Origin: Candidatus Hydrogenedentes bacterium CG07_land_8_20_14_0_80_42_17
GTDB taxonomy: Bacteria; UBA8481
DNA: 8,199 nucleotides
Assembly: GCA_002780065.1 (NCBI GenBank)
Contig: PEWQ01000207.1
Coordinates: 1-8,199 of the forward strand
Direction of reading: 5' to 3'
Both the position numbers and the translations under genes were made by a program. Position 1 is the stretch's first letter; each line of letters begins with the position of its first letter. The notes beneath the pieces are model-generated. The model was given only the letters and a program-made list of their open reading frames with translations, searched no databases and was not told where the DNA came from. Shown here piece by piece: positions 62 through 5,742 of this stretch.

Positions 62-502
62 TTAAAAAATCTCCGTGTCTCTGTTTCTCCGTGATTCAAA
101 AATGCTACTTTCACGAGCCCTGTTCTCAGTCAATTCTGATATGACTCTGTCAATCTCTTCTTTAGTTACAGGTTTGACTAAACATCGAGTAGCTTTTAAA
201 ACTAACAGCTTATCCTCGATGAACTCCTTTGGATGTCCTGTTATGAGAACTACATTCGGAGGATTCACTATCTCAAAATCGTTTTCACCCTGCACAAGAT
301 GCAAAAGCGAAAATATCTCAGAACCTGATGTATCCGGGAAACAGAAATCTAATAGAACTATATCGAATTGCCTCACGTCAAGTTTTTCTCGAACCTTGTT
401 GTAATCGCCGATCGAAGTGACAGTATGTCCTTTTCTAATCAGGTGCCGAGTTAGAGCATTTCTAAATCCATCGTCATCATCTATAAAAAGTATTCTCGCC
501 AT
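62..502 (-). CDS. Single-domain response regulator (CheY/Spo0F-like receiver)
   Basis: A 146-aa protein made of one receiver domain and a short tail. It shows the acidic pocket DDDD at 8-11, phosphoacceptor Asp52 in LLDFCFPD, Thr88 in LITGHP and Lys110 before Pro. An insertion of about ten residues (around 'QGENDFEIVNPP', 71-82) separates helix 3 from strand 4. No output domain follows, so it should work by protein contact or as a relay intermediate, like Spo0F or CheY. It is the last gene of the run, two bases after the stop of the double receiver. Its C-terminal residues (SRRNRDTEIF) are encoded by an 8-bp tandem repeat, so the original C-terminus may have been replaced. The GTG at 505 would add one Met. 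Confidence 0.87.
   Translation of the reverse strand: MARILFIDDDDGFRNALTRHLIRKGHTVTSIGDYNKVREKLDVRQFDIVLLDFCFPDTSGSEIFSLLHLVQGENDFEIVNPPNVVLITGHPKEFIEDKLLVLKATRCLVKPVTKEEIDRVISELTENRARESSIFESRRNRDTEIF
70..93. repeat. Three tandem 8-bp repeats at the 3' end of the last receiver gene
   Basis: On the minus strand the units are CACGGAGA, AACAGAGA and CACGGAGA, at 93-86, 85-78 and 77-70. The outer two are identical and the middle one differs at two positions. The array is translated as the last residues of the receiver protein, followed at once by a TAA stop and an A/T-rich tail. CACGGAGA/CACAGAGA repeats resemble short dispersed intergenic repeats of many bacterial genomes (from memory, unverified). 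Confidence 0.6.
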
Positions 503-504
503 CA

Positions 505-1572
505 CTATCTCCTTTCTCTTTCCAGTTCTCTCTTTTCATCTCTGGAAAGATAGCCATCTATTCTCTTATACATCTCGGATACACTAATATTCGAATTATC
601 AAGAGACAGGTTCTTCAATTCAGCTTCACTAATTAATTTCAGAACAAATATGGCAAAGATCGCGGCAAAAATCATTCCTAACAGCACTATTTTGGTTTCA
701 GGTTTTTTAAGAAAATGCTTGAAGCATATAAATGATCTCTTCGTTCCCGACTCGAACTTGTCCGCCATGTTGCTATTCTCTTCTGCCAGCACTTGCTGTC
801 TCTGCTCCCTCGCATCTTTAATTAGCGATTCCGCTATAATAGGAAGTCTTTCGATGCCGTAAACTTTATCGATACATGAAGTCACAGAATATTTTTGAGC
901 TTCAATTTTCTCCTCTCGATTCGCTTCGCCTGAGATAAAAGCAATCACCATACTTTCGTCAACCGCGCCAAGAACTTTTGCGATTTCGATACCACTAACA
1001 TCCGGCAGGTGAATGTCGATAAACGCAAGATCGAAGTCTCCCTTTTTCCATATATCCAGAGTAGAATTCGCCGAATCGGATTCCTCCACCTTAAATCCCG
1101 CTTTTTCCAGAATGCGCCGCGCCGCGTGCCTGAAGCCCTCATGGTCATCGACAAGAAGAATTTTCCCTTTCTGCTTTTCAAGAGGCTTGGCTAATGCTTC
1201 ATCGGCCTTTCGAGTTAGTCCCGCTTCAATCGCAGCTTTGAGTTCCTCTTCCGCCTTTTCTTTATGAACGAAAGAGACTGCGCCCTGCTTTAGAGCCTCA
1301 GTCTCGGTGGCTTTTGTCCACATGCCGGACATCAAAATGACAGGAAGTTCCGGTTTGACCTTCATGATCGTCTTCATCACTTCAAAGCCTGAAACGCCGG
1401 GAAGCCAACAGTCGACAAGAGCTAAATCAAATTTTTCTTTCTTGAGAACCTCGAGCGCTTCGGAACCCCGTTCCTTTGCCACAGAATCCCATCCGTCACT
1501 TGACAGATAATTCTGCAAAGCATTTACATAATTCAAGTCGTCTTCAACAATTAAAATGCGCCCTTTTGTCAT
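505..1572 (-). CDS. Tandem double receiver protein with C-terminal membrane anchor
   Basis: A 355-aa protein. REC1 (residues about 5-118) has Glu10/Asp11/Asp12, phosphoacceptor Asp54 in LVDCWLPG, Ser82 and Lys104; the usual Pro after the Lys is replaced by Glu. REC2 (about 136-250) has Asp142/Asp143, Asp186 in FIDIHLPD, Ser214 and Lys236, again without the following Pro. A helical linker leads to one hydrophobic segment near 294-314 (IVLLGMIFAAIFAIFVLKLI), then a charged tail of about 40 residues ending in ERERR. There is no DNA-binding or enzymatic output domain. Both receivers look phosphorylatable, so it may act as a membrane-tethered phosphate sink or localised docking partner (inference). 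The ATGA overlap with the kinase gene and a GAGGAG ribosome binding site at 1586-1581 support the start. Confidence 0.85.
   Translation of the reverse strand: MTKGRILIVEDDLNYVNALQNYLSSDGWDSVAKERGSEALEVLKKEKFDLALVDCWLPGVSGFEVMKTIMKVKPELPVILMSGMWTKATETEALKQGAVSFVHKEKAEEELKAAIEAGLTRKADEALAKPLEKQKGKILLVDDHEGFRHAARRILEKAGFKVEESDSANSTLDIWKKGDFDLAFIDIHLPDVSGIEIAKVLGAVDESMVIAFISGEANREEKIEAQKYSVTSCIDKVYGIERLPIIAESLIKDAREQRQQVLAEENSNMADKFESGTKRSFICFKHFLKKPETKIVLLGMIFAAIFAIFVLKLISEAELKNLSLDNSNISVSEMYKRIDGYLSRDEKRELERERR
509..514 (-). promoter_or_regulatory. Ribosome binding site that selects ATG for the last receiver gene
   Basis: AAGGAG at 514-509 lies six bases before ATG 502, but only three before the in-frame GTG 505. 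The ATG start is therefore favoured and leaves a two-base gap after the upstream TAG stop. Confidence 0.6.
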
Positions 1573-4492: not shown

Positions 4493-4690
4493 TCACTCTT
4501 CTATATCAAGCAACTCTCTGAGTTCGCCTATCTGATCCCTCAATTTTTTTACCTCGGCTAAAGCTTCTTGAACGGATTCCAGAGCAATGTCCCTGCAGAA
4601 CTCCTCATCGTTTGCAACCTCGAGATTTATAGCAATAGCTCCTAACGTATTGTTAAGATCATGAAACTGCTTCGAATATTTTTTCCCCAT
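4493..4690 (-). CDS. Small stand-alone H-box (DHp-like) histidine phosphotransfer protein
   Basis: A 65-aa protein with no ATPase, sensor or membrane part. Residues 9-21 read FHDLNNTLGAIAI, an H-box with His10. It resembles the HDFNN box of the membrane kinase encoded next (AHDFNNIMTVI) and also the HDL..P.GAI..G.E motif of ChpT-type phosphotransferases. A turn (NDEE) follows, then a long second helix rich in Leu, Glu and Lys (residues about 30-62). This gives the antiparallel two-helix outline of a DHp hairpin that would dimerise into a four-helix bundle. It lies between a histidine-less kinase and a full hybrid kinase, coupled to the first by TGATG. The likely role is phosphoacceptor or relay partner (inference). 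It is far shorter than Spo0B or ChpT, which keep a degenerate ATPase-like domain. It could instead be only a dimerisation inhibitor. Confidence 0.75.
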   Translation of the reverse strand: MGKKYSKQFHDLNNTLGAIAINLEVANDEEFCRDIALESVQEALAEVKKLRDQIGELRELLDIEE

Positions 4691-5742
4691 CACTGTCCTC
4701 CTTTTTGTAATTTCATTTCCATAGCTTTATTAACCGCTCTCCATAATTCTTCTGCGAAAAAAGGTTTTTTGAGAAATACATAACCGAACGCTTCTATCTC
4801 TTCGCGCTCTTTTCCGCTCATAATCAAAGCCGGCGGCATATCATCTCCTAAAACCAGTTTCATTGAATCGAGAAATGCGAGCCCGTTCATTTCATCAAGC
4901 AAATAATCTGCAACAATAAGATCGAACTTTTCGCTCCGCAATCGCGAGATGCTGTCCTTTGCTGTTTCGCAAATAACAGTTTTGTTCTTCTTTCCGGAAA
5001 AGATTTTGTAAAGAGATCTGCCCATCTCCGGGTCATCTTCGAGCACCAAGACCCTGAGATTAGATTTAGGAGTCGAAGGGATTTCAACAGATTGAAGCTT
5101 CTTCGCAAAAACAACCTCAAACCTCGCTCCTCCGAGTTTTTTAGGGTCAGTTGCAGAAATTCTGCCGCCGGCATTCTCGACAATCTCTTTGCACACGGAA
5201 AGTCCGAGCCCTAATCCCTCGCTCAAATTTTTTGTAGACAAATAGCGCTGAAATATCTTTTCTCTTTGCTCGTAAGATATTCCCGCTCCTGAATCTTCTA
5301 TGGAAAAACCAACCGAATCTTCATCCATAAAAGTTTCAATAAAAATTATTTTAGCATCGGCTGTTCGAAGTGCTTCAATAGCGTTTGAGATCAAATTCAT
5401 AACCACTTGTAAAAGGTCATTAAAATCTCCGTAAACAGCAGGCAGTTCAATCAAATTTCTTTCTATCAAAATTTTTCCATTCGAAATATCAGAATCAAAA
5501 AATTCCAACGCCTTTCTTATTACTCCATTCAAGCTTACGGAATCAAAACTTTTTTCTGAAGATTTCATGGATTTGCCGCTTGAATTTACAATCTCCTGAA
5601 TTTTTTTTGCAGTAAGGCGGATATTCATCGCAGACTCTTTTATATTTTCGGATACTGCCGACTGTAATATCGATTCAGTCTCCGTTAAAATAGAAGATAA
5701 TAATTTTTCTATTTCATTCTTTCGATTCAATACGTCACTCAT
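4690..5742 (-). CDS. Soluble hybrid kinase (GHKL ATPase plus receiver) lacking the phosphoacceptor histidine
   Basis: A 350-aa protein without signal peptide or membrane segment. Residues 1-60 are two helices resembling a dimerisation/H-box hairpin. [10 protein letters not shown] at 9-18 aligns with the usual HEI(R)NPLSSI, putting Asn9 at the histidine position. I find no histidine anywhere in the protein. Residues about 105-215 form an intact GHKL ATPase: N-box Asn116/Asn120, G1 box DSGAG at 150-154, F-box IFQRYLSTK and G2 box GLGLG at 176-180. Residues about 229-345 form a complete receiver: Glu235, Asp236, phosphoacceptor Asp279, Ser309 and Lys326 before Pro. An ATP-binding kinase core is thus kept while cis-autophosphorylation on His is lost. 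The next gene encodes a small His-bearing hairpin whose start overlaps this stop by one base. Trans-phosphorylation of that protein is the simplest reading (inference); it could also be a pseudokinase scaffold. Confidence 0.85.
4696..4701 (-). promoter_or_regulatory. Ribosome binding site that selects ATG for the small H-box protein
   Basis: GGAGGA at 4701-4696 lies five bases before ATG 4690 but only two before the in-frame GTG 4693. The ATG is therefore the better start. It sits in TGATG, sharing one base with the stop of the upstream kinase, which is a classic translational-coupling junction. Confidence 0.65.

Follow-up and report, generated by a model that had tools for sequence, protein, structure and literature searches.

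A natural candidate for a split histidine kinase: a histidine-less hybrid kinase and a 65-aa DHp-type hairpin encoded in adjacent, coupled genes

In an operon of a Candidatus Hydrogenedentes genome, a 350-aa hybrid kinase with a complete ATP site and no histidine is encoded directly ahead of a translationally coupled gene for a 65-aa protein that consists of little besides a DHp-type hairpin with an H-box histidine. From sequence comparison and predicted structures, we tentatively read the 65-aa protein as a stand-alone DHp hairpin that would be phosphorylated in trans at His10 by its ATP-using 350-aa partner, a reading to which we give somewhat less than an even chance. It is ranked first because a complete ATP site in a histidine-less protein is otherwise hard to explain. 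The interaction of the two proteins, the phosphorylation, the receiver targets and the physiological role are what we infer from these features. The two halves are small and soluble, complement each other and are encoded side by side, so that trans-phosphorylation is testable with two purified proteins.

The window, that is, the whole stretch of DNA analysed, is the complete contig C167 (8199 b), one of 207 in a draft genome of 2.39 Mb that is 87% complete. It carries seven genes, all on the minus strand, and adjacent ones overlap or almost abut in an operon-like arrangement (Table 1). The open reading frames from which the sequence-only reading started are real. The 222-aa protein is likely an output regulator; its HTH domain lies at the N-terminus of the receiver protein and not C-terminal to the receiver. 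A gene for FapA (DUF342) stands inside this two-component operon. The best NCBIfam match of the membrane hybrid kinase is CckA (2.8e-87), its 293 bits falling short of the cut-off of 1000. Three more receiver domains end the operon (62-1572), bringing the total to six receivers for two phosphoacceptor histidines.

Table 1. Genes of the window, with coordinates and the evidence for each product.
Product	Coordinates	Strand	Evidence
HTH_17/MerR-like DNA-binding domain followed by receiver, 222 aa	7335..8003	-	Response_reg 3e-23, HTH_17 2.9e-10
FapA (DUF342) beta-solenoid protein, 535 aa	5735..7342	-	Pfam FapA 1.1e-63, FapA_N 1.3e-28
His-less hybrid histidine kinase, 350 aa	4690..5742	-	Pfam HATPase_c 3.4e-20, Response_reg 1e-9, no HisKA match; alignment; AF2; structural matches
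Stand-alone DHp-type hairpin, 65 aa, H-box FHDLNN, His10	4493..4690 (stop codon included)	-	Sub-gathering Pfam HisKA, RBS, overlaps, codon score, AF2
Membrane hybrid kinase CHASE4-PAS-PAS-HisKA(AHDFNN)-HATPase-REC, 975 aa	1569..4496	-	Domain search
Double receiver (REC-REC), 355 aa	505..1572	-	Response_reg 4.9e-46 in two stretches; C-terminal predicted transmembrane stretch by eye
Single receiver protein	62..505	-	Response_reg 2.3e-14; probable start ATG at 502 (146 aa)

In the 350-aa kinase, a DHp region (residues 2-59) is followed by a CA/HATPase domain (about 64-218) and a receiver (229-348). Its AlphaFold2 model (pLDDT 89.2) comprises the receiver, the CA domain and a DHp hairpin with helices at 2-27 and 32-59, and it aligns structurally with DHp-CA kinases (Z 18-22). 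The protein contains no histidine at all (0/350), as had been read from the sequence, while His makes up 0.9-2.7% of the remaining window proteins. In an alignment of 47 kinases from the loci collected in this analysis, Asn9 falls in the column of the H-box His, which holds His in 45 of the 46 other kinases; this agrees with the sequence-only reading and rests on the sequence alignment, since the structural registers for Asn9 differ by about one among templates. The kinase also has K13 at H+4 (Asn in 36/46 others), L14 at H+5 (Pro in 38/46) and, in helix 2, Gly56 in place of a Leu found in 40/46. In contrast, all 12 of the CA columns conserved at ≥90% are retained (N116, N120, D150, G152, G154, F164, G176, G178, G180, L181, G193 and G205), which upholds the claim that the ATPase motifs are kept. 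The loss is thus confined to the phosphoacceptor half, and a CA domain intact at 12/12 columns beside a DHp that has lost its His, Asn+4 and Pro+5 speaks for continued selection on ATP use, with the required His lying elsewhere. With Asn9 and its HATPase_c match, the 350-aa kinase has the make-up of the ATP-binding protein without phosphoacceptor that belongs to a split kinase (PMC3591291). Contig scans of genomes with this kinase as the query returned generic kinases only, and searches of viral contigs and plasmids found nothing.

The hairpin gene starts at ATG 4690, with aaGGAGGacagtg upstream and GGAGG as the Shine-Dalgarno sequence. Its start overlaps the kinase stop codon in TGATG, confirming the junction described earlier, and its own stop overlaps the following GTG start. 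The codon score of the hairpin frame is 0.33 bits per codon, compared with 0.23-0.36 for the neighbouring genes, and the other five frames score negative. These signals bear on the possibility of a single kinase-REC-DHp chain, either split by a sequencing error or produced by a frameshift. The hairpin gene does come immediately after the kinase in a different reading frame, within one operon, and the fused order would look like that of kinase-REC-HPt hybrids. Nevertheless, the separate ATG, preceded by a strong Shine-Dalgarno sequence and coupled through the usual TGATG, speaks against a single chain, as do the kinase frame, in which inspection found no slippery heptamer, and the free hairpin gene of a related genome described below; we consider this explanation very improbable.

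The 65-aa product has the size of domain A of EnvZ (~67 residues). Against Pfam HisKA (PF00512) it scores E 4.1e-4, and its 20.8 bits lie below the gathering score of 26.9; it is therefore termed HisKA-like, an assignment supported by its H-box, its fold and an A1-A2 profile match (E 7.9e-10). AlphaFold2 predicts two helices, 6-27 and 33-64 (pLDDT 92.6). All 65 residues are placed on HK853 251-317 (Z 8.7, rmsd 1.7 Å), where the start of the range sets His10 on His260, but these structural matches are non-discriminating, as unrelated proteins with helical hairpins reach scores like that of HK853. The hairpin and the kinase's own DHp are alike in the geometry of their AlphaFold2 models: helix 1 ends at His+17 in the former and at Asn+18 in the latter, with turns of 5 and 4 residues, respectively. 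Together, the sub-threshold HisKA score and the two-helix model fit the earlier description of this protein as hardly more than an H-box hairpin. Its HDLNN retains both the acidic residue after the His and the Asn at +4, and conforms to the HE/DxxN/T motif of the bifunctional type. The protein thus corresponds to the other half of a split kinase, a phosphoacceptor protein without an ATPase (PMC3591291), and has nothing else in its chain. Searching PDB sequences for the hairpin turned up nothing beyond chance matches.

HisKA and HATPase searches of the same genome found an in-frame HisKA in every kinase-like HATPase protein except the 350-aa kinase; the remaining HisKA-less HATPases are GyrB and MutL (both by sequence), topoisomerase VI B, a SpoIIE-HATPase_c_2 protein and a HATPase_c_2-STAS protein. 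Among the matches found, the 65-aa protein is the sole credible HisKA without HATPase, and this wording is limited to matches found because the HisKA search missed the hairpin of the related genome and has low sensitivity for short proteins. All remaining HisKA matches lie in kinases with HATPase. The one orphan phosphoacceptor half found therefore adjoins the one histidine kinase found to lack HisKA, and the complementary loss on which the idea of a split kinase was based is specific.

A two-sequence hairpin profile, run over about 386 genomes, matched hairpins within larger ORFs and produced no further lone hairpin; the kinase-hairpin pair was found in one genome only. Short-ORF matches in two genomes were rejected as lone hairpins, that of G324 resembling a four-helix bundle protein and that of G266 a coiled coil. 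In an unrelated genome, a predicted membrane protein of 287 aa (G007:C231, L165:793-1656, minus strand) carries a C-terminal DHp-like hairpin (HEVNNPLTIATGNLELL) with no CA domain following. It is HisKA-like and HATPase-less, and its 7-kb contig holds no kinase gene.

One other genome of the phylum, G001 of the same order, was compared. It encodes a hairpin orthologue (37% identity, E 2e-5; own HisKA score E 1.3e-4) whose free-standing gene is flanked by a cold-shock gene and a nucleotidyltransferase, far from any His-less kinase, and no intact His-less kinase of HisKA type was found in G001. An orthologue of the window FapA (G001:C103, E 8.4e-85) marks the syntenic locus. Behind it come a receiver gene and the gene for a 294-aa protein, then another FapA and finally a hybrid kinase with AHDFNN. 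The 294-aa protein (L115:2082-2966, plus strand), kinase-like by profile, carries Ser in place of the His (ASELVTPL instead of the expected AHEIRNPL) and a decayed N-box (GLLDTA), and is thus degenerate in DHp and CA alike. Its kinship with the 350-aa kinase is weak (hhalign probability 83%, pairwise BLAST E 0.37), and no H-box gene lies next to it at this locus. The order thus seems to conserve a kinase relative lacking the His next to FapA and a hybrid with HDFNN, whereas the hairpin seems able to change place. The free hairpin and the degenerate kinase relative of G001 argue against an obligate pair.

The G001 hybrid kinase region (G001:C103, L123:691-5119, plus strand) contains repeated GAG runs (poly-Glu) and has its coding split over two frames, possibly through a frameshift in the assembly. 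FapA genes of the other inspected genomes stand in other contexts, several of those in unrelated genomes beside a sigma-factor gene, and so yielded no further kinase loci.

The degenerate G001 relative also recalls DivL, which has N-terminal PAS domains, binds ATP poorly and lacks a receiver. DivL carries Tyr (Ala in one species) in place of the phosphoacceptor His and regulates CckA, a His-less kinase acting as a sensor (PMC4211667). The 350-aa protein, likewise a kinase-like DHp-CA protein with its His replaced, could be a pseudo-kinase of this kind and serve the neighbouring CckA-like hybrid as allosteric sensor or regulator, with the hairpin acting separately. DivL (4q20) is among the structural matches of the 350-aa kinase (Z 19.8), and by analogy with DivL, the fact that His-less proteins keeping the kinase fold can be pure regulators counts against a split kinase. 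However, the ATP-site motifs of the 350-aa kinase are all intact, in contrast to the poor ATP binding of DivL and to the lost N-box of the G001 relative, whose kinship is in any case weak; in addition, its DHp begins at residue 2, it has no PAS match, and it carries a C-terminal receiver. A role as a pure regulator appears improbable to us.

A second alternative takes the hairpin as a minimal ChpT/Spo0B-like phosphotransfer protein that would pass phosphate from the receiver of the CckA-like hybrid to output receivers, the His-less kinase not being its ATP-dependent donor. We found no match to the HPt domain (PF01627) in this genome or in G001, although hybrid kinases are present, and the search behind this negative covered a draft that is 87% complete and a single relative, and relied on a first-look filter by which short matches have been missed; the hairpin itself has no match to the same model. 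With no HPt match in either genome, the hairpin may be a minimal ChpT-like shuttle, and a relay of this kind would explain both the missing HPt domains and the unlinked orthologue in G001, which stands apart from any His-less kinase. The hairpin of ChpT spans residues 20-83 and, at 64 residues, is of the same size; it shuttles phosphate on His33 (PMC3433190). In ChpT and Spo0B a DHp-type hairpin with a shuttle His takes the place of an HPt domain, and the 65-aa protein has such an H-box and predicted hairpin, with a neighbouring hybrid kinase that scores best against CckA models. On the other hand, ChpT and Spo0B each have a second domain, and the 65-aa protein ends after its hairpin, with no C-terminal CA-like domain and no match to PF10090, the domain of ChpT. 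A relay also leaves unexplained the complete ATP site of the His-less kinase beside the hairpin. We take it seriously as an alternative or complement to the split kinase and rank it second, though on the unlikely side. As a family, these hairpins are also candidates for the smallest phosphotransfer protein of DHp type.

The split-kinase reading accounts for the intact CA site, as the CA domain of the 350-aa kinase would phosphorylate His10 in trans. The usual four-helix bundle would arise from two copies of the hairpin or from the hairpin together with the His-less one of the kinase, and phosphate would pass from His10 to receivers of the same operon, whether the kinase's own REC, the HTH-REC regulator or the single or double RECs. 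With its HDLNN, the free hairpin could also be a phosphatase. A split kinase and a relay can both be true together. In one distinctly unlikely version, the coupled hairpin would take the place of the neighbouring kinase's dead DHp within a mixed four-helix bundle, serving both as phosphoacceptor and as the only shuttle of a cell without HPt domains.

Split kinases with separate HisKA and HATPase proteins were predicted from domain counts in 2013 (PMC3591291), one possible advantage being an output that is ultrasensitive or bistable, and the HisKA and HATPase domains of EnvZ are active on separate polypeptides (Park et al. 1998, cited in PMC3591291). The locus is thus a natural candidate for a predicted kind and not a new principle. 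The split of EnvZ was engineered, whereas here it would be natural, and the kinase half retains a His-less DHp plus a receiver. In SMART, 711 HATPase-less HisKA proteins with HE/DxxN/T have been proposed as split kinases (PMC3591291), a class to which the 65-aa hairpin belongs; that study gives counts and no partners, whereas in this window a matching His-less kinase is encoded right beside the hairpin. Of the precedents named in the sequence-only reading for a split between adjacent genes, the CheA type holds, whereas ChpT, like Spo0B, is a stand-alone phosphotransferase. In the literature searched, the experimentally studied natural split kinases are of the CheA type only: CheA3/CheA4 of Rhodobacter sphaeroides is a characterised split kinase that acts in trans, and Hik36/Hik43 form the split CheA of Synechocystis (PMC3591291; PMC7656254). 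The present pair resembles CheA3/CheA4 in combining an ATP-binding protein that has no phosphoacceptor with a separate phosphoacceptor protein. It differs in that CheA3 and CheA4 are CheA proteins (P1/P4), while the window would pair a HisKA-type hairpin with a HisKA-type Asn-for-His kinase in adjacent, translationally coupled genes, a candidate natural HisKA-type pair with complementary losses.
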